Position numbers and translations under genes: made by a program
NCBI GenBank assembly: GCA_963971425.1
Contig: OZ020519.1
Coordinates: 5,782,028 to 5,846,027 of the forward strand
Length of the DNA: 64,000 bases
Source: Bryoerythrophyllum caledonicum
Lineage: Eukaryota; Streptophyta; Bryopsida; Pottiales; Pottiaceae
Reading direction: 5' to 3'
Notes under the pieces: model-generated
What the model saw: only the letters and a program-made list of their open reading frames with translations
The model's database searches: none
What the model was told of the DNA's origin: nothing
Shown here: one piece after another, positions 10,755-50,576 of the stretch
Position numbering within the stretch: the stretch's first letter is position 1
How the letters are laid out: the number at the start of each line of letters is the position of its first letter

Positions 10755-10825
10755 GGCGAAATCACGACACCATTCAGAGTCTCAGTGTTCTCCTCGACAC
10801 ATCACTGTCCAGGCTCACGTTCGCT

Positions 10826-14730: not shown

Positions 14731-17700
14731 CTATTGCCTTGAAGAAAAAAGCTTGTCGGTATGATCCGTTCGAGTTCTACAACGAGTCCGCGGTCTCTGG
14801 CTTGGCCTAGCAATCCTCCCCCCCTCTTTGTACTCTCGATCCACGGCTGTAATTTCCCTATGTATCTCCGACCCCCAACTATCGTCGCTGTCATTGCCAT
14901 CATCCCTCTTCCGCTTCCCGCCAGGATCTACCTTCTTCGCCGCAAAGATTTCCATGGTCTTCTTTATTCGTTCCACCACATTGTTCACAAAAGCGTCATT
15001 CTGTGGGAATGACGCCAATAATTACCCTTCGGGTTTCTGTAGCACGTTCCGCCAATAGCCAATGATGTCCCCAATCCTCCGATCAAATGCTTGCACCACA
15101 TCCCAATAAGAACACTCTACGTCTTTAAAAGAATCCTCTTCTGTTGAACTCCGTAGCTTTGCGGCCTCTTTCAACTTTGCAAGGACAAGGGCTCTTCCCA
15201 CCAAAGTACGATTGTACTTCTTATACTCATCTCTGAACTCAATGCCATCGTTTACCTCATGCCATAGACCATCTTCTCCATTCTCAGCTCTCATTGGAGG
15301 AAATCGGAAGAAACGCTTGTGCTCAGTGCTCCAATGCCCCCCAAAGTTGCGGCAAAACAACTCTTGTTGCTCGCCATCTTCAATCTCTCCCGCCTGTATC
15401 TCCACCTCATAGTTTTGTGCCATCCAAAATAATGGATCAATTTCCATCCCATACTCCTCGTATAGTTGGTGACAAGAAAACTCATTATTCCACATAAGTG
15501 GTTTTCCCCACTCACGATAGTTCAGGGATTTCTTCGGAAGTTGATCCAAGGGGAGATTCCATCGGTTGAACTCGTGCCCCGGTGGCATGACATCTCTTAT
15601 CTCCATCACTTCGTGAAATCTTGTGCTAATAGGAGAGCCACACATAGGACACGCCGATTGTATCATAATAGCTACGGAAATGCAAATAATATGAAAGTTA
15701 TGGCCACATTGTCCCAATGTATACGCTTCCTCCGAACCGAAATAATTTTGGCACAAGCTGCATTTGTCATTGAAAAATGCCAGGACATGGTCGCAAGTAT
15801 GGATTACTCTTCGCTCCGATTTTACAAAATGTGATGAGAAGGTATCGTAGGGCACCCATCCTTCCTCCACTTCTAAAGCCCAGTCAATACCATGGCTCTT
15901 TCCCTTCCGATGATAGTTTGTGCGATCCATCATCTCCGGTATATCACCCCAAATAGTAACCTTCGTGGATTCATGTCCACATTGTCCAACAAATTTCCTC
16001 AATCTCTCCAATGAGGTATCCACGAGTTCACATGATTCTTGTGATTCGGCGGCAAATTTCTTGAGATCATGTTGTGCTTTGGAGACCATGGTCTCCATGT
16101 CCTCAAGGCGATGAACCCAACCCAACCAAGGCATTGTGTTCTCGTTCCATGGTGTCTCGTCCACCGATCTCAATGTCCTCCGCAGTGTCTCTAATTCCGC
16201 TTGTGCCACGTCCCTCTCCTTATTTGCCACCTCCAACTTCTGTGACATCGATTCCATCTCCCCCTCACCTTCCACTATCGCCTTCTTTTTCCAGGCGCTG
16301 ATGGTCGTACTTGGCTACTCCCAGCTGGTACTGCCAATTGAACAGAAGATGGCTCAGCCGATCTATTAGATTTGACCAGTATGGCATTCTCTGCATCGTT
16401 CCCTCCAAACTCGGAAAGAGAAAGGTCGTCAGAAGTTCCGGCGCTGTCATCAATGACTACCACATCCACCTCACGAACCTGTGCATTCATCTTCTCCGAC
16501 ATCTTTGTAACGAGTCTCCTACTGGACTCCAACATACGTTTGTTATCTTCTAATTCCCATTTAAGCTCTCTAGTCAGCATTTCATTTTTATGGACCTCCT
16601 CCACCATATCCATCACTTTCTGAGTTAGCGCGATCATGTCTTTTAACATTGGCGTTATAGAGGAAGCCAACGTGTCGAAGCTATCAGCGGCTAGTAGCAC
16701 ACTCGGAGTGATAGTTTAAAACGTATGAGCCATATCTAGAAGATGAGGAGCCATTGCTGCAAGAATTTCGGCCCCGTCCACCAAATTACGTGCCATTCTC
16801 ACTATTCCATGTATTTGTTCCCATTCGTTCAAATCACTTCGCAGATCGGCTGGATGACCAAATTTTTTTACTTGAGCGCACGCTTCAACCCACTTAACAC
16901 TCAAGTCGAGCAAGCCTTTCAACTTATCCTTATTTGGCATTGATCGAAGCATTTCTTCAATCTTGGAAATCAAAGTACCCTTGTCAATGATCGGGTCATT
17001 GGAATTTGGTTCCAATGCTTCCCGCGTTGAAGTGCTTGGCCCGGCATCCATTGTCTATGGTGCCATGCCTTCCAAAGTTTGAACGTTTGGAACAACAATT
17101 TCTTCTCCATTCATATTCTCCCCCCCTCATTCCGCGTTACCATGGTCTTCACCTCCTACAATCACAATATTTGGAATATCTGATTGTACAGGGTCTTCTA
17201 CCGTCGTTGTCTCCAAACTCTCTTTGGAAATTGTGGTTGACAATATATTGTCGGCCACAATATCCAAATGTTTGTCAGACTCCATCACAACGGCAACCTC
17301 CTCCACCGATGGTTGTATATTCGGCACGGTATCCACCACGGTCATCTGACGAGGTTTTTTCTTCAATTCCTCCAAAATAGCTTTGGTCAAGGTCGATTCA
17401 CGATTGAATAAATCAGGAATATGCTTTTGTTTTTGCCCAATCCTAAGCGGATATTGTTTTGCAGTCGGAAACGTGCTCCAATCCACCTTTTGTTTCAACA
17501 CGACCTCGGTGTATACCATTGATAGTAGAGTGAAATTTAAAAACCCTTTGCTTCTTGGGCAATTCCCAAACAAAGTCCGCCAAACCTCCTCCGCACGATA
17601 AATGAAGTGATCATCTTTGCACATCCACGGCTTGCAAGCAAAGTAAGTCGTATCACTTATGTGGCAATCTCTTGGCCAAATTTTATCGATGTGGTACATC

Positions 17701-26717: not shown

Positions 26718-28687
26718 AATTTTTTGGAAAAATTAACTTAACAGCGAGTTAGTAGCTTCCAAAATATTCATTTTCTTGGAATTCCGACTTCGGATTTGGG
26801 CTTTCTAGGTGTGTTTTCATTTAGTAGGTAAGCAAAAAAATTATTATAAAAGTTTTGAAAATTTGACATATTGGAGTGTATTTAAAAAGAACATTTCAGG
26901 GACTAAACTTTGGATGTAGATTATGGCTAGAGAATATGTTCATCACATTCGATCTCATGCATGTTTTTTGTGTGTTAGTGTTGGTTGTGTTTTCAAATTT
27001 GTTAAATTGTTATATATGGCGATATTCATTTACAAGACATGTAAGGTGTCTCATTTGAAATCTCATTTGAAACAATAATGTGATGATGGACACCAAAAGA
27101 ACACAATTGGATGGAAGGGGACGTCGCCAAAGCGTGCATGAACCCTAAACATGCCAAGTTTGAATCAAACTTTTAACTTTTCTATCCACCCGATTCAGGT
27201 GTAAATATTTAAAGAATGTATATGACAATGTCATGGAAAACCTCATGAGAAACAATGTTTTCCACCGTTCCCTTGAAAAAACAAGTCTTCTCTGTATTGA
27301 AAAATAGCATACCAACCCAAGTCAAACATTTTCACACATTGTCACTCATTGTCGGGCAAGGTACCAAAAGATCTTATTAAATTTCACATAAAACCTACAT
27401 ATCTTTGTATTTGTTACATTTTATTTTCTCCACATCAATATGTGGTGTAAACCTTCTTATTGACCATTCGGATTAGTAATCCAAAACACATGAAGTTCAC
27501 AAGAAATAAAAGTTTGAATTGGCAAATTTTGAACCTCCACTACTTCCACAGTTGTTTCGAATATGCTACACCTGTCCTCTACCTCAAAAAATTGTTGTCT
27601 TAGGAACTAACATCATGCTTAAGGTAGTGAATTTAGACCTTGTGTAGTTCAAAATTTTGACACCATGTAAAGTCAAAGTCTGCTGATCCACTAAACACAG
27701 TGAAGACCCTAAACCATTTGCTTCACTTCACACACTATAATCTTTCAATATGTGCGATCAAAGTTTTTGAAATATTGTAAACGTATTTTTTAATAAGTCT
27801 TAATTGAGATCCTACGGTCAGAACTAGAAATCAAACTTTTGGTTTCCTTCTATGGTCATTGCACTAGAATCCAACAACTTTGAAGTGTTTTCGGTGCAAA
27901 ACTGTCACGATAACTTTGGGGATATAGGAGACATGTTATATAAGTAGGAAGTCGGGCCTGAGGAGGCGTTTCAAATGGGGGTAATTTCTATAAATGCTAA
28001 ATTATATTCAAGAAACATAAAATGGTTGAGGTTATGTATGATTTAGTGCCATAGGCACTATGATCTATCCAAAAAATTCGAACCCAAACTCATAAAATTT
28101 GATATACGTCTTCTCTACATAAAACCTAGAGATCATCATATTTTACACATTTTGCTTTTTCAACAACATGTAGTGAACACTGAAAACCTTCCCAAACCTA
28201 GGTTTGGATTATCATTTGAAATCAAATTTAGTTTACAAAAAAATAAAACGTGGAATGGAAATTTTTAAACTCCAGTATTTGCGCACTTGATTTGAATATG
28301 CTACAATTCTTCTCTACCTCTAAAAATTGGTGTGTAGGAAAATATCATCATAAAGTTGGATTTGGATATTTTGAGGTAATTTAAAAAAAATCTGAAATAC
28401 AAGAATTCTGAAGTAGAACACATTGATAAGTTAAAAAATTGGAACTATGCCACAAGCAAAACCATGTAAAATACAAAAATGTCTGTCTTTGCACGGCTAT
28501 ATGAAAAAAGGTTTTTTTACTTCTTGTGCCCAAATTTCAAAACCATGCAGTACATATTAATCTAAGACTATTGCTATAGTCACTTTAAAATGTGCATGCT
28601 ATCTAGTACAGTCTAATAATCCGAAAGGAATAAAGTAAAACCTATGTATTACTAATACGTTGACCGAAAATTTTCATGAGGCGTGGG
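26718..28687. other. AT-rich stretch with reversed TTAA-MITE remnants, no gene seen
   Basis: About 27230-27915 carries the long TTAA-MITE landmarks in reverse order and complement (AAGTCAAACATTTTCACACA, GGGCAAGGTACC, CTCAAAAAATTG, TTTGAAGTGTTTTCGGTG, ending AACTTTGGGGATA). 28200-28350 holds a second partial copy. No open frame is convincing. Confidence 0.5.
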
Positions 28688-30745: not shown

Positions 30746-32877
30746 CTTCGGTCTCGCCGCGTGGCACTTCGTCGAATCTAACGGTCCAGAAAACTTACCA
30801 GGGCCTTCCGTAAATGCATTTTATCCCCCCCCGGACGGTGCGTCCGACGTGACGTCAGGACGTCCTCGTTCTAGGACGTCCTAGGATGCTCTCAGACCCC
30901 TAAGGACGTCGGATTGGTAACCTAATTCAAATATGAGCAGCGACAATGAACAGCAGTCATTGAACTAGAAATGTCTAGAAATGTCCACAACAGATGTGGT
31001 GTGGTAACTGACTAGTCTACAACAAGTGATGTAGCTCGGCCTGACGCAAAAGATGTCAAAACCTGGACCATCACAGCTAAAACTTAGCCACGTAACAATA
31101 AATAGCTCCAAATCAGTAGTAGGAAATACAATTGGTCTAGATTTGTATCGTGATACTGAACTTTAGATAGAGTCAGTGCTAGACTAGATGTGGTGCTTCC
31201 TTTCTAATAAATGATAGTACGTGGAGTGATCAATACAAGAGTTCCTACGTTCCTCGTAAACTTACAGATCTTTGTTCTACGTTCCTACGTTCTACGACGC
31301 CGTTTGGATCTCTATCTCCCTCGTCGTGGTTGCAAGTTGATTCTCTGGATCGACAAGATTGTGAGCGGGTTGAGTCAGCTTCTTATCGCCTGTCTCAGTC
31401 TTCTTCCTTCCCGCGCCGCGGAGTCTACGTATCCACTTTCTGACTTTGTGAAGAGCCATTGCCGAATTCCTCCGCTTCCGCTCCGCAAAAGCCACCTTCT
31501 TCCTTTTAAACCGTTTGACACACTACTTCACACCAAACCCGATAAAAAAAACCATCAAAGAAGTCAAAACCCCGCCTATTAAATTCCCCACTACATTTAC
31601 AACTACTGTGTGCCGCAAAACTGCCTGAGGAGCAAAAATGTCAACGTTCGAAGGAAAATGTCAACCACATTTATGACCAGAATGTGGCGCCACCACATCC
31701 ACGTGATTGGTATCCAAGTGTCCTACAAAACCTCAAAGCATGTTGGGAAGATATTGACAGGGGATTGCTATTTTGCGTGCCCAATTATGCGAGCTGCGAG
31801 CTGCGAGCCTAGGTTTGCGAGCGTAAAAAGAAAAAAATGTAAAATTTTGGAGCAAAAGTAAAAGTAACAAAACATTTAATAAGGAGGCCAATAAGAATGT
31901 ATAAAAATGTTTAGAAAAAAGTAAAAAGGAGAGAGAAATTCGTAGAAAAGGGTAAAAAAAGGAAGCAGTTAAAAGTGAAGATAAAAAAAGGTAGGGCCCT
32001 ATAGCCATGGGAATGCGCGAGAAATTGGCGTCAATGTGAACGAAACCTTATAATAATAAGGCGAGGGGTAAAAAAAATATAGGGCATCTTAACTACGAAA
32101 GTACCATAAATACCCTATAGCCGTGGGGTCAGAAACTGTGATCTGGGTAAACTGCAAAACATTTGGAAATACCATAGTTTTACAATGATATACCGACGTT
32201 TTTACACTTGACAAAATAGACTCGTGAAGTGGGATGAACTCTTAAGTATTTTGGGGCGCTTCAGTATGCAAAGGAGCCCAGTACACTAAAGATGATATTT
32301 AGTGTAACCACAGTAATATTTTTGGTTTAGCAATAACTTTTCTCTTTGGACGAAGATTTTTACCGAGGGCACAACTATCAATACTATCATATAGAGAGTG
32401 ATCATTGTTAACATAGTTAGAAAAAATAATCATGAAGAGTAAAAACGTATAGCACTTAAAATCTAGTTGGAGTGGTTTAGTCGTCGGTTTGAGGTATAAA
32501 TAATGGGAACGGATTCAGGCGCACATTCCTGAACCAAGTCTGAGAAGACATGGGCTTAGATCCAATGAGTAATAGATTTTATGATCAGAAGGATTGCCAC
32601 TGAATCATGTTAAGTAAAATATCATGAACTGGAGGCTACTGAACTACATATGAAGCTTTGAGGAATATACAAACCGAATATGAGTGTTTACTAAATTGTG
32701 CAAAAAAAACATGTTGAATAAAGGAAGTTCTGAAAAGTAAGCAGAGAAATAAAACACACAAAAGGTGCAGAAAATTATTGTGTACGCTTGTCAATATACT
32801 GTGTAGTAGGATAAAATCAAAACCAGATGATGTACATCAAATTCTAGTCCTAAACAGAGATGTAATCAAAAGTGTAG
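30746..32877. other. Intergenic stretch with repeat fragments
   Basis: Two pieces are recognisable. At 31606-31625 there is CTGTGTGCCGCAAAACTGCC preceded by TA, matching the end of the Tc1-type copy at 49393-49412. At about 31755-31840, TATTTTGCGTGC, AGCTGCGAGCTGCGAG and CCTAGGTTTGCGAGC are repeated in inverted orientation at about 47880-47960. The open frame at 31211-31582 has no domain and I do not call it a gene. The remainder holds nothing I recognise. Confidence 0.5.
31606..31625 (+). mobile_element. Orphan terminal repeat of the Tc1-type family
   Basis: CTGTGTGCCGCAAAACTGCC directly after TA, 19 of 20 identical to the reversed right terminus at 49393-49412. No matching transposase follows. 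Confidence 0.5.
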
Positions 32878-35800
32878 TCAGAAGTAGGAATCCTCGAAAG
32901 TGTTTGTGGAAGATGAGAGGCCAAAAATCTCCACGTCGGCTTCATCATCAATAAAACGACGAACACGACAGTCGAAATTTGGAACAGAAGAAGTCGATGA
33001 CGGAGAATAAGCCAGAGCCTGCGTAGTAGCAGCTGCCGCATCCCAAGGCGTCATGTTGAAGTCTCGTTCAGGAGATAACAAATGCGCAATCAATCTGAGC
33101 ATGTGAACCACAGAATAGTTATGGACAGAGTAAATAGTTAAAGTATTGTATATCATCGAATTATCAAACTTACGTACTCAATCTAGTTCTCTTTGCAACT
33201 CTCCGAATCGGGACATCCACTTCAATAAGCGGATGAGCATCAGCAACAGAGGAAACATGAGGAACGGGATGACGCCCTTGAAGAAAAGGCTTCAATTTTG
33301 CGTTGAAGACTGTAATGTCGTCGTCAAGGGCTACGATATGCCGGCCCGCTGATTTGCAAGCTCTTACGGAATTCCCTGTATTGAAAATACAAGATTCAAT
33401 GACCGAAGAGGAAGACGAAGTTCAAATTACCGACCAACAAAGCATCTTCAATGAGAAGGATTAGAAATTACCAACGGAAGCGAATGCATCGAGGACAATG
33501 CAGCCAGGTTTCGTGAGTGCCTCAATGAACATCTCAATGAATGCTACGTCTTTTTCACGGGGGCCCCTCCACGGAACCGAGCCATTCATCGATTGAGATT
33601 CTTTTGAAGTAAAGTTGAACACGACATCCGAATCCCCCACTCCCATGCCGAACTCGGTGTGGTCATCGATTACGGCAATGTGAAAGTTGTCAGCTCCAAG
33701 CTTCTCATGAATGAAGAGTTGTACTTTGAAGCGTCTGCTCTAGAAATGAGATAAGAGGGCAAAGAGTATAAAATCGAAGACCGAAATCCAAGAATGAAAC
33801 AGAACAGAAAATCGTGTTATACCTGGACAACAGGAGAGAAGAATGACGACAAGGGGAGGTCGTTAATTCCCCACCACTCACGAATCGGTTGAAAGCTATA
33901 AGCGGCCGCGAATGAGAGAACATCCGCTTTTATGCTGGGAACGTCGGGGACAAACAATAGAATAGCCCCCTTCGCTTGAAGAAAATGCTCCGCGAACTCA
34001 AAAAGCGTCTCCGTGTCCGCGACATCATACTGATTCCATATTGGGATGAAACCAGAGTTCTCGGAGACCCCGGGAACCATCATGCCATCCTTCAAATCTC
34101 CGATAATCAAATCGAAGCCGCTATGCGGGCACTTCGCAGAAAGAGAGAGTGTCCCAGTTTCATCCTTAACCTGAAAAACGAAGAGGCTCTAGTTTATAAA
34201 AAAGGCATGAGCTCGAACATCAAAAACCAAATAGAAGATAGCAAAGGATGAAACAAATAACAAAACAGATTGAAAGTAGAGTGAAAAAAATAATAACAAA
34301 ACAGAACGAGAGCGACAAACAGCGTATGAAATACAAGTGCCGACATCGTCAATGCTTGGGGAATACATGAAAGGAATACTTCCTCCCCATGAACGAGCTA
34401 CCGACATTGGCTTTGAAGAAAACAATATGCGAACAGATTGCATAATGAGTTGCGAATAGATTGCATGAAATCAATACGAAATAGTTGAATGGTAAGTGGA
34501 ACTGAATTCTAAGTAAATGAGAGGAGTACCTGGAGGGCAAAGTTGTTGAGTTCTTGAAGGTTTGGATGGACGTTGGGCAAATCCTCAATTATATTTCTTA
34601 TACTGGAGTTGGCAACAAAAACACGAGATCGAACAGAGGAGGATGGCTTGGTTTGGGGCTTCGTCGAAGCCGCACGTTTCTTCCGCTGTTCAGAGATGAT
34701 AGGGTCTGAATTCACAAGACCAAAGTCTACGTCCGTAGCCAATACCTCCGTGGAAGTTGAAGGCCGTGGTGGACAAAATAGCGGAGCGAACTCGGGGACG
34801 GCAACATCTACATCCATCTCGGTAGTGGCCGTTAATATTGGTTCCAGCGTTGTCTTCCGGCGGGAATCCACTGCCGCCGCCTCTGATAACAAGAGAATTC
34901 TCGCTTCTGCTTCAGCTGCCGCCTTCAGGGAAATTTCTGCAGCAGCTTTCTTCTTTGCCTCCTCTTCGGCTTTGCGCTTTGACACCCGGGCCTTCGAGGT
35001 TGTGGCGTCGGAGGCGGGGGGGTGCACAAGTACCTCCGTGCCAATCAAGGCTGGCTGTATCCCATTCCTTAGGGAAATCTCAAAAGACGGAGGGCATTTC
35101 AGTGGACAATCTAAATACCAACCGCAAGTTGCAAAATGCTATTGACCCCACCTCTTCGCAATCTCGTCAGTTATCATGCAATTGTCACTTCTTCTGTCCA
35201 AGTATCCAGGAAAGAATGCAGGAGTCTTCGACACTGCACTTCGAGGAAGGAGAACAAATTGGTAGTACCTGTATAGAACTCTAGAAACCGCCTCGGCCAA
35301 TCCGATCTGGTCCTCCGGTTGTTTATTCTTATGAGTTTTATTGACCTCGAAGTCCTGAACAAAAGCAAGATCCCATAGCTGGATCCGCATCTCCTCAACG
35401 TAATCAGGAAGACTCTTCACAGCGCATTGACCAGCCGGGTGATAGTCGATGGTGACATTGAGATCAGATAGCGAGGCAGTGAAGAGGTCCTGAACATCAC
35501 TGGCAATCTGGAAACATGGAACATATAAAATGAGGGAACAATAAACATAGTGTTTTGCAGCGAGTATGCAGAAAAATTGCATACCTGCGCCCACCAGGTG
35601 GCCTTGTGCAGCCATTCTGGAAATGAGTGGTCAGCGAACTTTGATCGAGGAAACCGCATAGCTGCCCGAAGCGATGTAGGCATATTCCAACGCTGCAACC
35701 ACTTGACCTTCGTTGAGGGGTCCATGGTTGATGTCGCAAGGTACCAAAGCTTCTCCTGGGACATTTCAGGGTCATCTTCGTGGTTCTCATAGTGCTTTCG

Positions 35801-38800
35801 CACCTCACCTAGAAAATGCGGCGTATGCTTCGGATCTGCAATGGGAAGCTGCTTCATTACTTCAGACCGCCGGTCCTTCCTGATCTTGGCAACCGCTTTC
35901 CCAATAACCTCATGAAGTTTCCCAGTGTTCCACTCGCTAGATTTCTCTGGAAACTGTTCTTTGAACTTCCTAGTAGCATGGGCGACGGCGTCACCTAACT
36001 CTTGCTGCAAAAACGAGAAAAATAGCATACACTCAGGGGACTATGTAGAGAAATGGTAATGAGGAAAAAATAATAACATGGAAAACACAAAACCAACAGG
36101 GTTCGGCAACTGCAAGATTTAGAGCTCCACTGAAGAGGCCTGCTCAAGGTGCCTACATCATCATCAGGAGATGAGCTGAACCAATGGAACCATTTCAATC
36201 AATAGACTATTCGATGTCGGAAAGGATAATGATGATCAATTCAGTCGATGGCACTTTAAAATCAAAGCTGATACAATGTACTGGAAGAATGAGATATAAG
36301 GAGAATTAATTTTACATGTACCTGATAGAGGACACCAATGAGAGCATCAACTGTCAATGTGTACCATGTGTGTTGATTTGCAGACTTTTGCTTCTTATCC
36401 GCACTTGCGAGGTCCTCTTTCGATACCAAATCTTCAAAAAACTTCAAAGGTTGTCCAGCGATTCCTTGCATGCGGTAGAGCTTGTGGACGAGGTTAAGTT
36501 TTACATGTCCAGTTTGGTTCCTCCTGCATTTTTAAGGAAAAATAGTTAGAAAAGTACAAAGCAAGAAAACTTATCACGAATTGGTCCTGAAGCGTACCAA
36601 TTCACTTGGTGAAGCGCGGTTTGTAGGCGCCCCACCTGTCCATCAACTTCTAGAATGATTGACTCAACCGCATAATGCCACGCTGGGTCACTACTGTGAT
36701 CTCTATTAATTATAGGTAACCACGCCGCGAGTCTGTGATTACCGTTCCACACAAAGAACATTTTTCCCGAGAACTGCATCCATACTTCTTCTTTCATTAA
36801 CTCAATCTCGAACTCTTCGTCAGCTTTAACCCACATTGGGCTCCATTTTGCTTTAATATCATGCGTCACTTCCTGCGATCTGCCCTCATTATCATGGATG
36901 GCAACGTAGAACACTCCGTGGCCGTCCATATAGCCTGTGGTCACAAATTGTGCTCCAAGTGCCATTACATCATTTTTTAGGTATGGTCTTACCGCAGCGA
37001 GAGGCAACATTCGGCATAGGGGAATACAAAGCTTCGACTTGTTTCTTGGCTTGAATCGCCGTTCGTCAAGGATTAGACTGGTGTTCGATGACTCCATGAC
37101 TACCAACTTATCCATTTCCCTCCCCAGCTCTTCTGCTGACATTTGAACAAGCGGTTCGCAATCACGCAGCTGATCTCCAACATCAGAAACTGGAACGTCC
37201 TCGATGATCAATGCATTGTCCAAAGTATGAGCCTCCCCGCCATCATCACCTAAGGATTCATAGCATGTCAGCCCGTAATCATGAATTCAGTATTGAAGCA
37301 ACTGAAGAATTACCTTCTTCAAAGATTTCAGGCTGTGACCGATGAAATAAACCAGCAGAAGCCGGAACTGTAGCCTCCGCTTCTCCTTCTTCCAATGCTG
37401 AACAAGGACAACAATTCAAAGATTATGAAGTACAACCGGGAGCAAAAGAGATTATGGAATGAATAGATCAGTCTTGATCTGGCGGGCATATCAAAGGCAC
37501 TCTTGGAAACAAGCGCCCCGGCACCTCGAGCCCCAGCATCGAGCCCCGGCATCTGGAGGCTGCCGACATCGGCAGCCTCCTGCTGGTGCCGCAACCAGTT
37601 GCGTGTCACGAGCCTGTGTAAGCTTGTGTATGCTTACAACATGTGTCAAGAGCCTGTGTAAGCTACGCTCTTTGCGGAGTCAAGAGCCTGTGTAAGCTTG
37701 ATAGATATCATAAGTTAGGAGTCATCATGCAGACCACTTCGCCAAGTCCAACTGCAGCTAAAAATGCGGCACAAACGATTGGACTTCGCGAAGTGTGGAT
37801 ATGCGTGTGCGAGCAGCATGCAGTAGTTTGTAGCGTGACCTTGCTATCCCTAAACCAGGACACTCAGAATGTTGATATTTATCTTCACCCTAAACCCGAA
37901 ACCTAGGGTCCGACCAAAGGTTTCTTAATCCACATGATTTGTGTATACACTGTCTCTTCGTTCGCATCAGACACTACTACAGTTCTACTGTCGCCTAGCT
38001 AGAGATCTATCATTTTTACGTGAATTACTTAATTCTCATGGATTTCGTAGACTTGGAAATGGTTTTAATATGGTACCTGAACTTGGTAATGGCATGAGTC
38101 AAAGATTTAAGCTCGAATCCCAGTGACTTGTAACAAAACTGGACCGACCAATTCTGTGCAAAAAAAAAATTCGAGATGATGAAAATGAGTTGGGATGCAA
38201 CAAGAGTTACATACCGTCATTGATGTCCTCCGAGCTCGTCCTATTTTCGGCGTCCTCCCCAGCCATACTATAAGGATCTCGTTCCTCTGCATTCACATCA
38301 ACGCACGTTTAGCATCCAAAACTCAGTAAGCCGCATACAATATGAAGAGCCTGGAGGCTGCCGATATCGGCAGGCCCCTGCTGGCGCCAAAACCAGCGCG
38401 GGTCGCGATGCCAACACTGAGCTGCCGATGTCGGCAGCCTCTCGGTGCCGGGGCTGGATGCGTTATCCTCAGCTTCAGCTTACACAATTTTCAGGAGATT
38501 TCTATACTCACTTGCAACTGACAACTCCATTGTCACGACTTCAAAGCTTTGGTGCGTTGGTGCACTGAAACGCCTACCTTGTTCAGGACCTGCTTATGGA
38601 GCCCTAACGTAGAATTCAGGGCTTGGCGCGCACAAAGGACATGCATAATCCGTCCCCCAGAAAACCGCCGGGAATTAGACGGCCTCGATTAGGACTGCTT
38701 CGGCTGACGTAAAATATCAAAAACTGTTGACTTATCCCCCGAAAATAGCTACCCTCGTTGGTTTGTCAGAAGCCTGTGTAAGCTTGATGGACATTATAAG

Positions 38801-41550
38801 CTGGTCCTAATCTTAGGTATCACCGTGCAGCTTGAGATATGCAGGGCTAGGCCACGAAGCAAAGCGGATTATGCATGTGCTAGCTGCAAGCAGCATGCAG
38901 ACCACTTCGCCAAGTCAAACTGCAACTTTAGACTTTAGTAGTCTCTCAACTTACTGGGTCAGGCTCTCAACTACTAGGTTTAGATCGTAAGAAGTTACAA
39001 TTTTGGAAGGTTGTAGAGTTTTCCCATACCTTTAAAATGACACCATTCATGCTTCAAAATTCCTCATACTTTAGGAGATATTCACGGTCAAAGTTTGAAT
39101 ACACTGTAAGGGCATGCTGAAATCTGAACAAAACTGCGGTATTTGCTTATTTATTCTCAAAATCTGCCCAAAATCAATTAGATCGCAGTAACTTCAAAAA
39201 TTCACCAAAAATAGAGAATTTACTTTTTTTCGAATTTCGTTTTTCGTACATGTAAAAGAGGTAGTAAAGCATGATCTCACCATTTGGATTTTCAATTCGA
39301 TAAATTTTTAACATGCCTTTTTAATTATTGAAAATGGGCTATTGTATTTGTATATCAGCAGACCTCCATGTGAAAAAATTTGCAGTTCTTTACGTTTTAT
39401 AGGTCCTATGAGGGTAAAAATTGTATGGACATGTTCCTTACTCACATAGTAACAAGAATATGAAGAGCCTCATGTCAAATTTCCTTTCAAAAATGGTTTT
39501 TATGGCCCCCAAAACATTAGTTTTCCATTCTACAACAAGGAAAAAATCTTTTTTTTCAACTTTGAACATTACGATCTCACAAATGGAGAAGAATTTGAAT
39601 CTAAGATTCGGAATGCATGTTCATGTTCAAGTTAGGTACTAGATCTTACGGTTATATACTCGAAAATTTAAATACTCGAAAGTTTTTAAATTTTCACCTT
39701 GCATTGAAAGAGGGCAGTTTTGAATCTACATGAATTGTGTATACAATGTCTGATCGTTCGCAACAGACACTACGACATTCACAACAGTACTACTCTCGCC
39801 TAGCTAAAGATCTATCATTCCTTCGTGAGTTACTTGTTACTCTAGAATTTCGTCAACTTAGAAATGGTTTTAGTATGGCACCTGAACTTGTAAATGGCAT
39901 GAGTCGAATAACGGATAAGCTCGAATCCCAGTGACAATTATCAACAGTCACTGTAACATCCTACGTGGAAACCGACCAAGATACAGAATGGATGCAGTTT
40001 TCAAATTCATCATGCACACACTGGAAAACTGGACCGACCGGCTTGGTTCTGTGATAATAAGAATTAATCGAGAAAGATGAAAATGAGTTGTGGTGCAACA
40101 AGAGTTACATACTGTCATTGACGTCCGCCGTAATCCTCCTAATTTCGGTGTCCTCCATCGCCATACTATTAGGATCTCGTTCCTCTGCATTCACATCATG
40201 ACAGGTTTAGCATGCAAAACTCTGTGTGGCGCTTATAGTATGAAGAGAAAGGAGGCTTGCGCGGGTCTGCAGCCCCTGTCGGCGTCGCGATCTGCGCGGG
40301 TCGCGACGGCAACAGGGGGCTGCTGATGTCGGCAGCCTCCTAGTGATGGCGCTCTCGCGCATGGAGCCCTGGCACCTGGGAGCTGCCGACATCGGCAGCC
40401 TCTTTTTGGCGCAGCAACCTGCGCGGGTCGCGACGCCAACAACAGGCTGCTGATGTCGGCAGCCTGTAGGTGCTGGCGCTCTCGCGCATCGAGCCCCGGC
40501 ACCTGGGAGCTGCCGACATCGGCAGCCCCCTGTCGGTGTAGCAACTTGCGCGGGTCGCGACGCCAACAGGGGGCTGCTGATGTCGGCAGCCTCCTAGTGA
40601 TGGTGCTCTCGCGCATGGAGCCCTGGCACTTGGGAGCTGCCGACATCGGCAGCCTCTTTTTGGCGCAGCAACCTGCGCGGGTCGCCACGCGAACAAGGGG
40701 CTGCCGACATCGGCAGCCTGTAGGTGCTGGCCCTCTCGGGCATTGAGCCCCGGCACCTGAGAGCTGCCAACATCGGCTGCCCCTATTGGCGCAACAACCT
40801 ACGCGGGTTGCGACGCCAACATGGGGCTGCCGATGTCGGCAGCCTTCAGGTGCTGGCGCTCCATGCGCGAGAGGAAGTAGCCTTAGGTAATCCTACTTCC
40901 AAGGAATGTGTTCACTCACTTGCAAAGACTCTGATGACTGAAACGGGTGTCATCTTCTACGGGGCATTAGGTCGATCACTGAAAGAAGAACGATGGTCAG
41001 AGCTATGATCTGAAACCCTAAGCACGAGAGTAGAAGCGTTGATTGTTGCTAATCGAGTACAGCTGAAATACCGCGTGTTATAGCTAACATGTCGATATGA
41101 CTGAGAAAGCAATTGCTGCAGTCAATTGAGACTTTCTGAACATTCAAGCTGTGAGTTCCACTTACCTAGGTGCGACAACTGCTCCGTCTCATTGGCACTG
41201 CCGCATTCACCGACGCCATCCTCACTTGTACTACCGCTGTGGATTTCCGTGAGACTATCACCTTTTACAATATTGCTCTCCAACAATCTCTGAAGGTCAG
41301 TCAAACATTCTCCTTCCTCCCCTACTCTGGCCTTCCCTGTCCCTTCAAACTCAAGTACTCTTGTTGTGTCCCCAACATCCGCCAATCTACTGCTGGATCT
41401 CATCGCTCTAATAAGCCTACAACGTTTCAGTTGTTTTCTATTCGTAAAGAAGAATGCTTGTTTTCGGCGTCTCTTCGGCATAGCCCTTGAATTGCAGTTC
41501 CCCTTCTCTGTCAATTCACCACTCCATTCTTGTCGAGACCCCCTACTCAT
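32878..41550 (-). CDS. ParB-like domain fused to a beta-class DNA-methyltransferase-like domain, 13 exons
   Basis: Exons (minus): 41550-41166, 40184-40113, 38286-38215, 37397-37314, 37249-36598, 36523-36322, 36004-35585, 35507-34530, 34410-34321, 34170-33823, 33739-33472, 33375-33174, 33094-32878. All introns are GT-AG, all phases agree, total 3,990 nt (1,329 residues). Exon 1 has an NLS-like PKRRRKQ. ParB/Srx-like segment about 278-385: IPLCRMLPLAAVRPY ... VWNGNHRLAAW. A helical middle and an Ala/Glu/Lys coiled coil (about 780-830) follow. Residues about 1000-1258 resemble an N4/N6 DNA methylase with motif IV before motif I: GFDLIIGDLKDG (DPPY position, degenerate), AKGAILLFVPD, then PGCIVLDAFASVGGN and GRHIVALDDD. 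One in-frame TAG (35139-35141, codon 752) lies in exon 8. Divergent from a MULE gene. Function is inferred. Confidence 0.7.
37925..38330. repeat. Duplicated intron/exon cassette, copy 1
   Basis: It carries a plus-strand 61-codon ORF and exon 3 of the ParB-methyltransferase gene. It matches copy 2 (39722-40225) over the whole length, including GTTGCATCC/GTTGTGGTGC spacers and the exon with its splice sites. Confidence 0.75.
37941..38126 (+). CDS. Small conserved ORF, copy 1, antisense within an intron
   Basis: The 61-residue frame (MYTLSLRSHQTLLQFYCRLA ... KLESQ) matches the ORF at 39737-39934 at protein level. Shared blocks include RLA-DLSFLRELL, FR-L-NGF-M-PEL-NGMS and KLESQ. The two differ by a 9-bp and a 3-bp indel, both preserving frame, which hints at coding selection. 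No start consensus or signal peptide is evident and I recognise no family. It may be an exon of a larger plus-strand gene or a relic inside the duplication. Confidence 0.35.
   Translation: MYTLSLRSHQTLLQFYCRLARDLSFLRELLNSHGFRRLGNGFNMVPELGNGMSQRFKLESQ
39722..40225. repeat. Duplicated intron/exon cassette, copy 2
   Basis: It carries the second small ORF and exon 2 of the ParB-methyltransferase gene. Both 72-nt exons are phase 1-1, so either can be skipped or used without a frameshift. Confidence 0.75.
39737..39934 (+). CDS. Small conserved ORF, copy 2, antisense within an intron
   Basis: The 65-residue frame (MYTMSDRSQQTLRHSQQYYS ... TDKLESQ) is homologous to 37941-38126. It is basic, Ser/Gln/Leu-rich and predicted helical in the centre. 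It lies in intron 2 of the minus-strand ParB-methyltransferase gene. Expression is unknown. Confidence 0.35.
   Translation: MYTMSDRSQQTLRHSQQYYSRLAKDLSFLRELLVTLEFRQLRNGFSMAPELVNGMSRITDKLESQ
40250..40860. repeat. GC-rich minisatellite of nested palindromes
   Basis: Nine near-perfect palindromes of the form GCTGCCGACATCGGCAGC (or its GATGTC variant) sit at about 40320, 40382, 40447, 40509, 40574, 40636, 40700, 40763 and 40827, giving a dimeric unit of about 127 bp. Linkers alternate between TGCGCGGGTCGCGACGCCAA and GCGCTCTCGCGCAT-GAGCCC types. Single units occur at 37553-37600 and 38349-38450 and a fragment at about 44386-44430. The open frames inside are artefacts. Confidence 0.9.
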
Positions 41551-42130
41551 TCTATTCCTACAAAGCGACCGCCACCAATAAATCTAACGTGTATATTCAT
41601 CTGACAATTATTCCTAATTACCAAGTCGAAATCCTAGGTAGAACCCACGTTCATTGATTCACTTACTGAGGTTTGCATCGGTCTCTGTGCTGACAGACCT
41701 GATACTTTCATGAAATATATTGAGTTCGCCGCCATTCTCTGAACTGAAGGATATTTAGGCTACAACTTGAGATGAATATTGACGGCCTCATTAATTCAAT
41801 ACTTGAATACACTATAAAGCTCTTTAGTGCTCTTTCCTGAGATTTTTTGAAACACTGTACTCTTCATGGATATTATTACTGAACACGTGATACTATAGCA
41901 TTATTGATAATCTTCTTTTTAGTTCAAAATCGGCGTCTCTTAACTACTCTGCTACGGAATTAGTTGAACTACATCTTCCTTGAACTTATGGCATTCTCAA
42001 AACCTACATTTAATCTTTAGTCCGTCCGCTCGGAAGATCTTGCCATTCACAGGCTTCACATCATTTTGCATCCTTAGCCTCTCCAGCCTCATCCTTCTTT
42101 TGAATCTGTTCACCACACATCTTGTATTAC

Positions 42131-45100
42131 ATGGCTGCATCACATGTTCTGAAATGTGGATCTGTTCTCCTTCGCGCTGCTGGTCAAGCTTAACCCATTT
42201 CTTTTCCTGTTTCAGATGATGGGTTTGCTACAGTTTCTGAAAGTCGTTTGGTTTCTCGTTTCCATTTCTTGGAACACAGTGTCCATGTTGATATGGATGT
42301 TCTCGATCCCGTCACAAACGAGGTCAGCCATATAGTTGCTCAAATGCCTTCCTCTGATGACGGTACAAAGACTTGGCTACTGCCTCCTGGAAACTATCGA
42401 GTTTATGGGACTGTGGATAATACACCGATTACCGGATCGTTAAACTTGACACCTGGTCGCTGTTCTACTGCAACTGATGTGACTCCACATCTTCGGAATG
42501 TAAAACTAGAGCCACCTGATGATGGAGTCGTCATTCTTAGTGACGATTCCAACAGCGAGTGCATCCCTTATGCTACCCTTCCGAGTGCTTTCCTTCTGAA
42601 CTCGGCAATCCATGTTTCTCAGTCCACACCGTCTCAGAGTGTTGGTCGCACCAATCTGAAACCCCCTCTTCCTCCTTCTGATAGTATTGTCCAGTATCTC
42701 CGACTTCTTAGCAGCCGACGTGGCTCGAAGTCTGTTTTGTCAAAACTAGATTACAATTCCATTCCAGTACGCAAGGTTGATTTTCTCCCTCCAGATTTCG
42801 ATGGAGATGTCATCTTTGAACTACCCCCTTTAGGAAAGTATCCTCCTTCCACAAAGGCTGGCCACCTGCACGGAATGGATAAACGGGATGACGGCCACGC
42901 TTGGACGCGAACTGCCACTTCGCACATCAAATCTGAGTTTCACCTCATCTTTCGAATGTCTTCATGTCTTGGCGACCTGAAGTGCGCCAATGACTCCTGT
43001 GATTTCATAAAGCGTCCGAACGGGTTGTCCTCACTTAATGAAACTGAGTGGGAGGGGAATTCTGCATCACCATTCGTGCCAGGCTGTGACCCTCCTCTTC
43101 ATTCCACTGTTGTCTGCGCTGTGTGTCACGTTCCGCCTACCTGTTATGGATGTTGTCCGGCAAAGATATATTACGTTCTTGGCGATAGCCATGTGACCCG
43201 AGCTTGCATTCACTTGGGTTCACATGGTCATGCTGTGAAGAAAGGGAACTACAGGGACTCCTCTGCAAAGCTTCGTTGCCTCATTGGCGACCAGGTGGAA
43301 CGAACTCCGGCTGGAACAAATTCCTCTATTGTCCTCGAAGCTAGCAAGGAGTTCCTTGGAGAATTACTCTTATGCCCAGATGGTGTTCCACACAGGACAT
43401 TGCCTTTGGAAGAACTTGTCCCCGTCTTGGACAAGTTCAAACTGATGTCCTCTCCTAGCATTCGGAATGAGGTGACAACGTTTCGTTACCTTCGCCGATT
43501 CGGTGTCATGGATAGCATCACCAAACTCAGGGGGTCAAGCAATTGGGCCTTCGTACAGGAGAATCGTTTCCCTGGTCAAGGAACAGAGTCTGATAAAGTC
43601 TTCATCTTCAAGATGGCCGAGGTAGGTCCTGGGAGTGGAGTTGATTTAGTGAAGCGAATGCAACAAGGGGGTGATTTGGAGGACTCCTGGATGATGTTTG
43701 ATCACGTCAAACGTGTCAAATCTTGGACCACAATGGCTTGCCATGTGTATGACTCTACTTACTGTCGGGTCATGACCATTGCTATTTGCGATATGCAGTC
43801 CGAAGATGTGGCAGCTCAGATTGTGTTCTGGCAGAATCTGAATGCAGTTTGTAACAGGCATGACCTTCTCAGTCCAAATTTCAAGGGATTCATGGCAGAT
43901 AGTGCCCAGGCAAACTGGAATGTTGTTCGAATAATTTACGGTAGTGGCGACCCTGCCGTTCCAATGGAGTCCAGAGAAAGAACTTGCCTCTTTCATTGGG
44001 CTCAGTCCCTTGAGAAGCACACGAAGGCAGATATTCGAAGCGACCTCCAAGATCAGCACCGAATGCTGTGTAAGCAATATAAAAATTCCATCTCTTTAGA
44101 GGTGGCCAAGTGTAGGTACTTGGCAATCAGGGCATGGTGGTTGTCCTCCGGGGCATCAACTGAGGAAGGGCTTCCGAGACTAGAGTTTTGGCTATCTTTC
44201 TGGCATTTCCGATATCGGCAATGGGGAGGATTCATGGAGCTTGTAAGTGCACTTATTTTTTCTTTTCCAGAATTACTTCAATTGGTGTCATTCGATAGCC
44301 TCACAAAGTTTGGCCTTGTAGGCACCCAGAAAGAACTGTAAGTTGCACATTCTGTATTTCCATTTCATATCATGCATTTAAACACTGCCGTCGTCGGCAG
44401 CCCCTTGCTGGCGACGATATCGGCAATACGGAAGTTGTGGCCCTGATTACGTTACATTAAATCAGTGTTCTCAACTTGCATTGCAAGATTTTCTAACATG
44501 TCCCTTCTCTGTTATTTAATTCACGTCTACATCACTACATTGCTTTTCTTTGCTGTTCTAAACGGTTCTAACAATTCAATCTTTCTCTTGAACTATGTTT
44601 TGTCCCATTCTCTGCAGAACCTCAGCAAAGCTGAACTAGCCGAGATGCCTTCCTGTAATTTGGCTGAGTCGGTTCATAATAAATGGTTGCAACAGTCGGG
44701 AAAACGAGGGAATGATTTATATGTTGCTGCAGTCGACGACATGGTTCGTGCTTTCATGCAAGTTGTCGCGTATTCTCAATTCCTGAAGGGTGAGATGCCA
44801 CGTACGGGTCCAGGAAAGGAAGAACTCCGGCTCCGTACTGCCCTTCGCACCGCCCAGCGTTCAGGAAATGCTAAGGTTCTTCATGCCGCCTTTGCCAACA
44901 TGCCCGGTGCAGTCGAATTCTGCACTCGCAATCCTCACCTAGAAGGAGAAGAGGAGTTCGTATCCTTGAAGAGAAAAGCTGATCTTCCTCCAGGTTCTGA
45001 ATTTGATTCACATCGCCCGGATAAGATTAGCATCTCCCGCCCCAGGGGTAAGGCACGTCGCATTGATGAAGTGATTGTGGATCTCACAGCTGATGATCCT

Positions 45101-46066
45101 TTGCCATCACCAAATCCCTCTCCGGAGGCTCCTGAAGCACTTCCTTTGTCTCCACCAAGAACTTCTTCCCGAGTTCCATGCGTGAGAGTTGTACAAGAGA
45201 CGGTCTGTCATGAGAATGACTGGCACATCGCAAGGCTTCCTAAAACATCTGCTAGGAAATGTTTCGCTCTTCAAGCCGATACAAGGAAGAAGTGTGTGGC
45301 ATCTATTGTACAGAACAACCGAGCAACAGCTGCCCCTACTTACACTGGCTTGATGGACAATTACAAAAAGACTAGATTAGAGAGACATCGGTTCTTCTTC
45401 TGCAACGATGACATTCATCGTTGTGTTATGGGCACACGGCGCAAGTGGGTTCAAAGCATGCCACCTCCTCCACAATTTCGGCCAGTTCAGATGGGCACAA
45501 ACCTGAGTAGAACAGAGATACTTGCCTTTGAAACTGCAGGGTTTTGTCTCGCTGAGCGTGAGGTTCTGTCCCGTAGACAGTTGTTTGGTGAAGGCGTCTC
45601 CGTCAACCTGAATGATTACCATGTGCCTCCTAACCCTACAGACCATCCAACCAAACGATACGGAAAAAACATCCGAAGAAACGAAGCTGCTCCTACTACT
45701 CGTCACCATAACAGCTGCGCCTCTGCTCACTCCGTAATGGGAAAACTCTGCACGATTCCAATGGTTCCGTCTCCAGCCCTTGGTTGCATTATCACTTTGG
45801 AGTCGCGGAACATTTCTACAGTTTCCCGGTATTTTGTAACAATCGGCCAGTTTCCAAGCTGCGACTGCCTCTCTTTTACAGAGATGTCGAAGAAATCGCT
45901 TGGCAAACGCGGTTCATGGACTTACTGTAAGCACCTCTACTACATATTCAACATTGTGTGTGGATTAGACCCGGAGGTAGATGTCTTTATTCACGCACCT
46001 AGTTTCAGTTGGAATGAAATCAAGCGAATTCTTCAGATTCTGCTCCTAAAATACTATTTTGCATAG
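42131..46066 (+). CDS. MULE-type transposase with SWIM zinc finger, two main exons
   Basis: Exon 42216-44242 and exon 44618-46066 join in phase 0 (GT-AG). The N-terminal half has Cys-rich motifs (LKCANDSCDF, CAVCHVPPTCYGCCP). The core looks like a Mutator-type DDE domain: HVYDSTYCRVMTIAICDM (first Asp), FKGFMADSAQANWN (second Asp), then ERTCLFHW (the C-x2-H that follows it in MULEs). The C-terminus ends in a SWIM finger, CDCLSFTEMSKKSLGKRG ... YCKHLYY (CxC ... CxH), which MULE transposases share with FAR1-type factors. The 5' end is not settled: exon 42216 needs a phase-1 upstream exon, and the only in-frame ATG nearby (42131) would imply a 33-bp intron, shorter than plant introns normally are. 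No internal stop in either exon, so it may be functional. Divergent from the ParB-methyltransferase gene. Confidence 0.7.
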
Positions 46067-46729
46067 CTACCATTCCCACTCGCTAGTCTTGTAAGAAGAG
46101 ACTCCTTCCATTTAAAAGATGGTGAGACTAAAAGGGCCACCTCCACAGCTTGTACTACATCTTGTCTACTCTATCTCTTCACTTGCATGAAAGAGGGGAC
46201 AGATGCCCTCTGTAGCTTCTAATTTTGCTTGTCCCTAAACCCCGAACGTGGTTGAATCTTGCATTATTCCAGTAACGCCTTCCGACTGTCTTTGTTTATC
46301 GTCTTTCGTAGTTGTCTTGAACTCATGAAGCTCCCCTACTACCCTAAACTGTGTTTGCTATAGACTTCACGTAAACCAAATCCAACTATCCATCTTCTTA
46401 TTGAACCACTTTGTATAGGACTCCCATGAGACCCTAAATCGTTTACTCTAACCGCATATCTTTTGTTATCCATCACTCTCGCCTAAACCTACATATCTCC
46501 ATCTTCCTCTCTATCTGCCACCAACGTTGTGTTTCTACAGCTCGATAAAACTGTGGACCCATGACCCTAAGTACCCTAAACCCTAAACCAGGAGTCCTAC
46601 ATCCTGAACCCTAAACTGAAATCTACACTACCACATGCCTCTCCTCCTCTCTTCCACTCCACTATTTTATACGTTGAACCCCTAAACCTAATGCTTCATA
46701 GCCACAGATATCCTATCTACCCGTTATTG
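46067..46729. other. 3' flank of the MULE gene with interspersed CCCTAAA words, no gene
   Basis: At least eight CCCTAAAC/CCCTAAA words occur, densest at 46558-46610, but only two are in tandem, so this is not a telomere tract. Confidence 0.5.
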
Positions 46730-46733
46730 TTAA

Positions 46734-47678
46734 CCCCTAAGGTACCAAGGCAGTTTTACACCAAAAACACTTCAAAATTAATGGATTTTAGTGCAATGAA
46801 TAAAGAAGGTAACAAAAACTTTTATTTTTAGTTCTGACCGTAGGATCTCAATAAAGGCTTATTAAGTAATACATGTACAAAATTTCATAAACTTTGGCCG
46901 CACGGATTGAAAGATTATAGTGTTTGAAGTTAATCAAATGGTTCATTTTCTTCCCTGCGTTTAGTGGATCAGCAGACTTTGACTTCAGTTGGTGTCAAAA
47001 AATTTCACTACACAAGGTCTAAATCTATTACCATCTTGTTAAGCATGATGTTAGCTCCTTACACACCAATTTTTAGAGGTAGAGACAGGGTGTAGCATAT
47101 TCAAAACAAGTGAGCAAGGAGTGGAGGCTCGAAATTTGTTAATTCACACTTAAATTTTTTTTGAACTTAATATGTTTTTGATTGATAATCCGAATGGTTA
47201 ATATGAAGGTTTACATTACATATTGTTGTGGAAAAAATAAAAAGTGAAAAATATGAAGATCTCTAGGTTTTATGTGGAAAAGAAGAAGTTTTTTTGGTAC
47301 CTTGCCCGACAATGAGTGACAATGTGTGAAAATGTTTGACTTGGGTTGGTATGCTACTTTTCACTAAAGACAAGAACTTTTTTTTGACAACATGAAGGGA
47401 AATAATATTACTTGCGAGTACTGAATATCTCACTTTCAATAGAGTGTCCTATCAAAAGTTTTTGGAGGTGCCCGAGGTGCCCGCCCTCCCCATTTGAAAT
47501 TAAAAACCGTATAACTTTTTCATCAAATGTCCAATTTAGGAAAAAATTGTTTTCCCACTAAGGTCTTGGTAATGCCCTTCTATGGTAAGAATTTCAAAGA
47601 TGAATGTTTGAAATTGACAGCATAGGAACCTGACCGAATTTTCAAAAAGCCCGTTTTGGACACTTGGTCCTTTAGGGG
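46734..47678 (+). mobile_element. TTAA-MITE, long form, best-preserved copy
   Basis: 945 bp flanked by TTAA on both sides (46730-46733, 47679-47682). Ends read CCCCTAAGGTACC and GGTCCTTTAGGGG. It has no open frame and carries all landmarks of the family, so it is the reference copy here. Confidence 0.85.
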
Positions 47679-47879
47679 TTAAACCATAGAATCCACAGCC
47701 ATAGATACATGTAGGAAAATATGAACTAGATTATCAAACCCTATAACCTCGCGCTTTGAACCCTTTCACCGTCCCCCACGGTCATAGGTCCCCCTATTTA
47801 TTGCGCCCAAACCTAGGTCACCAAAAACTAAACCGATTATACTTTTATGTTCTCTTATCTTTTTCAAATTGGGAACAAA

Positions 47880-47960
47880 ATATTTGCTCGCAAGGCTCGC
47901 AACCATAGGCTCGCAGCTCGCAGCTCGCAAAGTTGAGCACGCAAAATAGCTTGGTCCGAT
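47880..47960. repeat. Dispersed GCTCGCA-rich repeat
   Basis: GGCTCGCAGCTCGCAGCTCG and TGAGCACGCAAAATAG match, inverted, the sequence at about 31755-31840. Confidence 0.6.
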
Positions 47961-48090
47961 ATTGACAAGTGGCTAAGATAGGGAAGTTGAAATGTAGCTT
48001 GTTTAATGAAGAAGTTTTGCAGCCGCCTGTCTGTGTTCTATATCTTGGACCACAACTCAAGAGTTTTCAGTGAATTTGAGGTCGTAGTAA

Positions 48091-49414: not shown

Positions 49415-50576
49415 TGTCAAATTCTTCATTGCCAAATCCTGAAAAATATCCGAAGGGCCCGCCACTACCAATTTTAACGCCATTCTGTTGCCAACAGTTG
49501 CCTAGTTGCCCAACACTAGTTCTGAGTTGCCCAACAGCCGCGCCCAGCTTATATTTTGTCCGTCCGCATTCCTGACATCGTGAAGCCGCGGTTGTTTTCG
49601 TTCCCAAGAGTTCCCACATTACCACACATAAAAAATTCTTTGATTTTGAAAATTTTATACTAGACTGCCGTTGGTATATCTATTTGGAGGTTTTTTTTGT
49701 TTTTTATTTTGTAAGATTTGTGCTTCGAAAGTTAAAACCACTCAAAGTGAAAAATGGGAAGTCCGGGCATCTAAAAACTTTTGCTAGAAGTTTCTATTGA
49801 CATTGAGATTTTCATACTTATGAAAAATATCACCTTCTATGAAGATTTCCAAAAAACACCTTGTGACCTTGTCTTTAGTGTAAAATCGCATTGTAATCCA
49901 AGTCAAAAAAATTCACACATTTTTGGGCAAGGTACGTAAAAACTTCTTCTTTTCCTCATAAAACTTAGAGATCTTTATAATTTTTCACTTTTTGTTTTTT
50001 CTACTACAAGATGTGATATATACCTTCTTATTGACTGTTTGGATTAGCATTCTAAAAGATATTTAGTTCAATAAAAAATAAAATGCAAATCGACCTTTTT
50101 TAAACCTCCACTCCTTGCACAAACTTTTTTAATATGCTACACCGTTTTTCTACCTCTAAAAATTGGTGTGTAGGGAAATAATATCATGCTAAGACAATGG
50201 TAAAATATTTGGAACTTGTGTATTGTAAAATTTTTGAAGAATGTGAAGTCAAAGTTTGGGGAGCCACTCAACAATGAAAAGAAAATGAAGCATTGTTTTC
50301 ATTTTAAACATTATATATCTATCAATCGATGCAGTGAATTGCAACCAAAAAAGTACATCATGTATATATATAGAAGTATATTTCAAGATCTTCCGATTCA
50401 AAATCCAAAATTCATTTTTAAAATGTGATTTCTATGCCACTTTTTGACGGTGACAGTTTTGGACTTGTTTTTGAGCGAAATTGGCTTAGACCTTTAGGAT
50501 GTTTAGAGAATATAACGTACTTCAATTCTTATTTAGGTGCATGGGATTAGAAAGGTGTGTTTGCCTCTCCAAATAT
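49415..50576. other. AT-rich stretch with a decayed TTAA-MITE in reverse orientation
   Basis: From about 49640 to 50500 the landmarks run in reverse (TTTGGGCAAGGTACG, ACTACAAGATGTG, AAACCTCCACTCCTTGC, CTCTAAAAATTGGTGTG), ending near GACCTTTAGG at 50490. No gene is seen. Confidence 0.5.

Follow-up and report, generated by a model that had tools for sequence, protein, structure and literature searches.

In plants, the recognition of transposons by their own proteins has, to our knowledge, been worked out mainly for the VANDAL elements and their VANC proteins. According to published accounts, VANC21 binds arrayed motifs, which form and evolve as tandem repeats in the introns of VANDAL elements and differ from one related element to another (PMC5735166), Mutator-like elements have target-site duplications (TSDs) of 8-11 bp, SWIM fingers and antisense second genes (PMC6446971), retrotransposons of dinoflagellates and charophytes carry DNA methyltransferases (DNMTs) (PMC5890265), and ParB-methylase accessory genes have already been described in algal transposons, with a 21.5-kb Sola1 element as the carrier. 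Here, we describe a two-gene DNA transposon of the moss Bryoerythrophyllum caledonicum. It is located in a 64,000-nt stretch of contig OZ020519.1 (GCA_963971425.1; positions 5,782,028-5,846,027, forward strand), referred to below as the window, whose own numbering is used throughout. Opposite a transposase candidate, the element carries a spliced gene, termed gene 2, for a protein with a predicted ParB/Srx-fold domain and an N4/N6 methylase-like domain.

The best overall explanation is, in our view, that gene 2 encodes a sequence-specific self-recognition factor of its transposon (probability about 0.45). This proposal is based on palindrome arrays in the noncoding parts of the element, whose motifs differ between families, and on the apparent selection of the ParB-like domain.

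The element, its two genes and their relatives

A 99%-identical copy on contig C4 begins to resemble the window at position 31760, and its upstream half differs from the window. Together with an inverted repeat and the 10-bp direct repeat flanking it, this start defines the element, a member of what we refer to as family A, as 31760-47957. Terminal inverted repeats are abbreviated TIRs, and no strand is given for features without one.

31750..31759: left copy of the TSD GATATTGACA, an exact 10-bp repeat directly outside the element
31760..47957: complete two-gene DNA transposon, family A, 16,198 bp, with TSD and TIRs
31767..31822, plus strand: left TIR with GCGAGC repeats, 56 nt, 91% complementary to 47895-47950
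32878..41550, minus strand: gene 2, predicted ParB/Srx-fold and N4/N6 methylase-like protein, GT-AG joins with compatible phases
41550-41166, 40184-40113, 38286-38215 and 37397-37314, minus strand: gene 2 exons 1-4
37249-36598, 36523-36322 and 36004-35585, minus strand: gene 2 exons 5-7
36598..37249, minus strand: predicted ParB/Srx-fold domain, exon 5
35507-35152 and 35067-34530, minus strand: gene 2 exons 8 and 9, one continuous stretch in relatives and broken by a stop in the window copy
35139..35141, minus strand: in-frame TAG of the window copy, inside the 84-nt 'intron 8' (35068-35151), which is coding in relatives
34170-33823, 33739-33472, 33375-33174 and 33094-32878, minus strand: gene 2 exons 10-13
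33174..34170, minus strand: permuted (beta-order) N4/N6 methylase-like domain, exons 10-12, matching PF01555, phage methyltransferase families and PDB entries 5hek, 1eg2 and 6pbd
37559..37576: one GCTGCCGAnnTCGGCAGC palindrome, gene 2 intron 3
38357..38438: two GCTGCCGAnnTCGGCAGC palindromes, gene 2 intron 2
40319..40843: nine GCTGCCGAnnTCGGCAGC palindromes (up to three mismatches) at a spacing of 63-64 bp, gene 2 intron 1
42194..44341, plus strand: first long open stretch of the transposase candidate, conserved core at 43484-44236
44384..44401: one GCTGCCGAnnTCGGCAGC palindrome in the gap that separates the open stretches of the transposase gene
44447..46066, plus strand: second long open stretch of the transposase candidate, with a C-terminal SWIM-like CxC...CxH
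47895..47950, minus strand: right TIR
47958..47967: right copy of the TSD GATATTGACA

A genome search with exon 5 (437 Mb in 894 contigs) yielded 1,770 first-look candidates and, from these, 150 scored matches, of which 22, including the window and 21 others, are at least 92% identical; 18 of these 22 have no stop in that stretch. Among the more distant matches are those of families D, E and B, with exon-5 identities to the window of 67% for D (contig C11), 69% for E (contig C1) and about 40% for B. Family B came up in eight loci, long pieces of which are nearly the same from one locus to the next. Two B copies (on C3 and C4) could be extended to the same two ends, giving elements of 19.7 kb with TSDs of 9-10 bp, TGTCGACTG(A) and ATATTACTG, and with imperfect inverted repeats at their ends (75% over 60 nt). 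Gene 2 and the transposase are found together at A, B, D and E loci. In family D, seven rows of the exon-5 search, each on a different contig, have the same score (3.6e-83) and the same identity, which makes this family a candidate for spread in the very recent past. At the locus L034 (C4:13712356-13722350), the transposase upstream of a 99%-identical family-A gene 2 is only about 52% identical to that of the window, contains stops and lies in the opposite orientation, as in a nested or exchanged element.

The two genes of the element are divergent, with the transposase candidate on the plus and gene 2 on the minus strand. Both transposase stretches have counterparts in family B (44% and 33-46% identical), where the two genes diverge as they do in the window, and those at the D and E loci are 61-71% identical. 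The transposase core is 54-83% identical to its B, D and E counterparts and contains invariant acidic residues and a CxxHW motif, which we take to resemble those of MULE transposases. The SWIM profile touches the D and B relatives with E-values of 0.47 and 0.93, below the Pfam cut-off, and no Pfam match to the MULE transposase family was found. The assignment as Mutator-like therefore rests on layout and TSD: the element has TIRs and a 10-bp TSD, the latter 9-10 bp in the two B copies, and on these features we regard its build as Mutator-like.

An earlier note on this DNA had described gene 2 as a spliced minus-strand gene of 13 exons between 41550 and 32878, encoding 1,329 residues. The multi-exon gene stands, as do its GT-AG joins and phases, but one of its twelve introns is wrong, and the 13 exons rebuilt from the sequence amount to 3,816 nt including the stop, or 1,271 amino acids. 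None of the 11 close copies that cover the place of 35139-35141 has a stop there, and families D and E read straight through the site of 'intron 8'; the join at this intron is thus an artefact, which steps over a nonsense codon, and gene 2 of the window copy is broken. Counterparts of exons 6-13 (residues 423-1259) are found in families D and E in the same order as in the window, as compared at the level of order. Exons 2 (40113-40184) and 3 (38215-38286) are near-duplicates within a 182-bp direct repeat, 84% identical, and represent an exon duplication inside the element. The earlier suggestion that the gene is carried by a transposon is borne out by TIRs, TSD and copy number, and gene 2 is almost certainly an accessory, second gene of this transposon.

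The ratio of nonsynonymous to synonymous substitution rates (dN/dS) was determined pairwise for exon 5 of 32 sequences; of the 496 pairs, 140 have a dS below 2 and were used, the rest having a dS of at least 2 or being saturated. It is 0.145 at dS below 0.05 (16 pairs) and 0.186 (33 pairs), 0.094 (33), 0.111 (2) and 0.065 (56) in the higher bins, values that are biased downwards by the choice of most of the 20 diverse copies for their open frames. Even so, the ParB-like domain appears to be under purifying selection that acts through repeated transposition. The methylase exons of recent B copies have ratios of 0.77 and 0.67, as expected for drift after insertion, and provide no evidence for selection on the methylase.

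The inverted repeats 28109-28351 and 47045-47283 were also considered as element ends and rejected, as they are part of another repeat that is present several times. A repeat family at 27277-27924, 46731-47385 and 49868-50326 (83% inverted, 71% direct), has one member within the right end of the element.

Palindrome arrays and the proposed role of gene 2

With up to three mismatches, GCTGCCGAnnTCGGCAGC is present 13 times in the window, always within the element. The exact sequence occurs 252 times genome-wide, and a reversed-pattern control not at all. The 50 of these 252 places that were listed (contigs C1 and C2) are all at most 4.9 kb from an exon-5 copy and are distributed over nine such copies, 74-93% identical to the window in exon 5, some of them at no more than 74-77%. 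One diverged copy (L059, 75% identical in exon 5) has 21 palindromes, three of them outside its array; in that part of the copy, only exon 5 otherwise matched the element in the window. Conservation over 34 units, taken from the window and the diverged copy, is 97.4% in the 16 core columns, 52.9% in the 2-nt spacer and 62.0% in the 44 flanking columns. The units were selected by their matches to the core (up to three mismatches), which favours the core in this comparison, but both arrays have a regular spacing of 61-64 bp with no skipped unit. The core is conserved although lineages with a similar degree of identity have diverged to a dS above 1.6 or to saturation.

The other families have motifs of their own. 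In family B, the palindrome TGTTCTGTACAGAACA is found six times in the left 8.2 kb of one copy, compared with a largest cluster of two in 20 block shuffles. In family D, GGGGTGCCGnnnnCGGCACCCC occurs four times (up to three mismatches) and has TGCCG...CGGCA in common with the A palindrome; the first short-spacer palindrome test found no cluster in this family. Copies of the B and D motifs also lie in the gap of the transposase gene and on the upstream side of exon 5 of gene 2. At the corresponding place, family E has CCACGGCGAGGAGG and further repeated arms, but it failed both short-spacer palindrome tests. When the patterns were matched across families with up to three mismatches, the A pattern was absent from six B loci and present three times in the D and twice in the E locus, the B pattern was absent from the A element and the D and E loci, and the D pattern was present three times in the A element, counts that make A and B cleanly distinct and show A and D to overlap. 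By their sequences, the A and B palindromes are unrelated and that of D is a cousin of A's, which gives family-specific motif arrays in noncoding parts clearly for A and B, weakly for D and as repeated arms only for E.

The conservation of dimeric sites amid drift, and their replacement by another palindrome in a distant family, point to a dimeric binder encoded by the element. With its predicted ParB/Srx fold and its DNA-methylase-like domain, the gene 2 protein appears to be the best candidate, the transposase being its rival, and we put recognition of the element's palindromes by the gene 2 protein at slightly under an even chance. We infer that it would bind the palindrome arrays of its own element as a dimer, with the ParB-like domain as a nucleotide-dependent clamp or loading part. 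Once bound, it would act in trans on the chromatin of the element and keep it expressible or license its transposition, as VANC does for VANDAL; the broken window copy would then depend on intact relatives. Such an anti-silencing or licensing role, proposed by analogy, is more tentative than the recognition itself. A far more speculative extension, which we consider improbable, is that a ParB-parS-like system has been rebuilt in plant transposons, in which a nuclear ParB-fold protein would load at palindromes and spread or clamp, and a methylase-like reader would protect the element from silencing. If true, transposon self-recognition would here depend on a eukaryotic equivalent of the partition complexes of bacteria.

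The strongest competing explanation, which we regard as rather unlikely, is that the palindromes are transposase sites, or regulatory or satellite features, and that the gene 2 protein acts elsewhere, for example at the TIRs or in the transposition complex. It would account for the presence of palindromes in the gap of the transposase gene as well, for the satellite-like similarity of the array units and for the TIRs having GCGAGC repeats of their own, but less well for a core that is better conserved than the rest of the unit and for the three copies outside the array of the diverged element, although these last two observations fit either protein as the binder.

The ParB-like and methylase-like domains

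The ParB/Srx-like pattern that had been recognised in the N-terminal part of the protein is present in exon 5, and a structure model places the domain in the ParB/Srx superfamily at the level of fold, making this assignment very probable. A first model built from 13 sequences was poor, with a predicted local distance difference test (pLDDT) score of 56.6. The ParBc family (PF02195) was matched by none of 13 relatives at E-values up to 10 and none of 61 at E-values up to 1; another ParB family, CB_ParB_C, was touched by two of the 61 (best E-value 0.089, chance-like). A Pfam scan of the whole gene 2 protein found no ParB family, and a profile of the domain compared with PDB chains found no ParB, the best match being a chance-like stretch of a ribosomal protein. 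The window copy has NGNHR in place of the DGNHR of most relatives, a substitution in an otherwise conserved motif. A public protein search with the domain alone gave 483 relatives, including, among the 120 listed, one that bears an organism name, that of the moss Ceratodon purpureus, and a search with the full-length protein gave nothing at E-values up to 0.01, perhaps owing to an Ala/Lys low-complexity stretch that draws candidates. Within the reach of pattern scans, no relatives of the domain were found in viral contigs or prokaryote genomes, and to that extent the proposed recent entry by horizontal transfer from phages or bacteria finds no support.

The assignment of the C-terminal domain to beta-class methylases was confirmed by motif order and by PF01555 (N6_N4_Mtase), which matches the isolated domain with an E-value of 1.7e-6 and 28.6 bits, above the cut-off of 26.7. 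In the whole gene 2 protein, PF01555 matches residues 1096-1150 with an E-value of 1.3e-5 and 25.7 bits, below that cut-off. Phage DNA methyltransferase families and PDB methylases match the same stretch, the phage matches covering 21-52% of the domain among the 20 listed. The earlier note was right in describing a eukaryotic protein with both a ParB-like and a beta-class methylase-like domain. Only six methylase-domain relatives were found by search. Motif I is kept only in part (VLDAFASVG in the window), and the first Gly of FxGxG is replaced by Ser or Thr. The catalytic motif IV reads GDLKDG in A, ADIPDG in D and ADLKDG in E. It is DQPF in seven of eight B copies, in the eighth of which the alignment begins inside the motif and holds a stop, and also in the Ceratodon purpureus relative (P0124). 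The canonical (D/N/S)PP(Y/F/W) is absent from A, B, D and E, with the DQPF of B as the nearest form.

The doubt already voiced about catalysis was well placed: ordinary methylase activity is improbable for the methylase-like domains of A, D and E, which have lost the catalytic DPPY motif and would more likely serve as a DNA- or SAM (S-adenosylmethionine)-binding part, and that of B may still function in DNA modification. This suggests that three of the four families seen have retained the methylase fold but not its standard catalytic motif. That the gene 2 protein is an active N4-cytosine or N6-adenine methylase marking its own transposon, the reading offered for an Ectocarpus protein, is consistent with the PF01555 match, with the DQPF motif of family B and Ceratodon purpureus and with an acidic residue that is kept in the domain and which we take to be that of the SAM pocket, but it is made doubtful by the replaced motif IV in A, D and E, the departure of DQPF from DPP(Y/F/W) and the altered FxGxG.

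Purifying selection on exon 5 would also be expected of a domesticated host gene beside a transposon, as had been considered earlier; the 150 scored matches, TIRs and TSD point to a mobile element instead, and with gene 2 located inside TIRs and TSD alongside a transposase, with 21 other exon-5 matches of at least 92% and with a nonsense codon in the window copy, domestication is very unlikely and largely refuted. Finally, one wrong intron out of twelve might suggest chance open frames joined by a motif-seeking reader, an explanation that can be dismissed in view of the copies, the relatives and the exon order conserved in diverged families.

Neighbouring features and comparison with known systems

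Outside the element, the window contains pieces of a hAT transposase (11834-13895, plus strand), with DUF659 (4.4e-34) and the hAT dimerisation domain (2e-8), and an open reading frame (ORF) with DUF7869 (58684-60315, minus strand; 6.2e-51), which adjoins other long minus-strand ORFs and is possibly part of another mobile element. Of two further minus-strand ORFs, one resembles, by eye, an LpxD-like acyltransferase (9822-10781) and the other contains a RING-H2 finger (15022-16314).

The N-terminal CTPase domain of bacterial ParB, Noc and KorB is only 7-17% identical to the gene 2 domain, for which PF02195 matched none of 61 relatives, and no counterpart of the bacterial helix-turn-helix was identified in the gene 2 protein, in which the region between the two domains was not modelled. 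With beta-class N4/N6 methylases (PF01555; DpnA, RsrI and CcrM), gene 2 has the motif order and the motif X-I region in common, whereas its DPPY motif is altered. DNMT-bearing retrotransposons likewise combine a transposon with a DNA methyltransferase, but their enzymes are of the C5 and not the N4/N6 type and their carriers are retrotransposons and not DNA transposons.

The closest match by description is provided by the algal ParB-methylase accessory proteins, which likewise combine both domains in a single long chain and whose gene lies opposite that of the transposase within a giant DNA transposon (21.5 kb, compared with 16-20 kb here). Given these algal reports, neither the fusion nor its occurrence in transposons is new, and the statement that the fusion is unknown from any eukaryotic family has to be withdrawn. 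In contrast to the Sola1 carrier of algae, the element described here has a TSD of 9-10 bp, a SWIM-like transposase, a land-plant host, many copies, an altered catalytic motif and palindrome arrays. In the literature searched, a library that leaves out many papers, we found no report of this fusion from a land plant or a Mutator-like element, or of its association with palindrome arrays. The arrays provide named candidate binding sites that are cheap to test, and the suggestion made for algae, that the protein binds and modifies its own element, can now be tested directly in mosses, which include genetically tractable species.

The closest parallel in proposed function is VANC of the Arabidopsis VANDAL elements, likewise the product of an added gene of a plant Mutator-like element with arrayed intron motifs. 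Here, an apparently unrelated protein type is found in elements with noncoding palindrome arrays, and the palindromes of two families are unrelated to each other. The VANC21 motif, YAGTATTAY, is by contrast non-palindromic and present in one orientation, and the accessible part of the report mentions no ParB or methylase domain (PMC5735166). The action of VANC on silencing has been shown, whereas for gene 2 it is inferred only.
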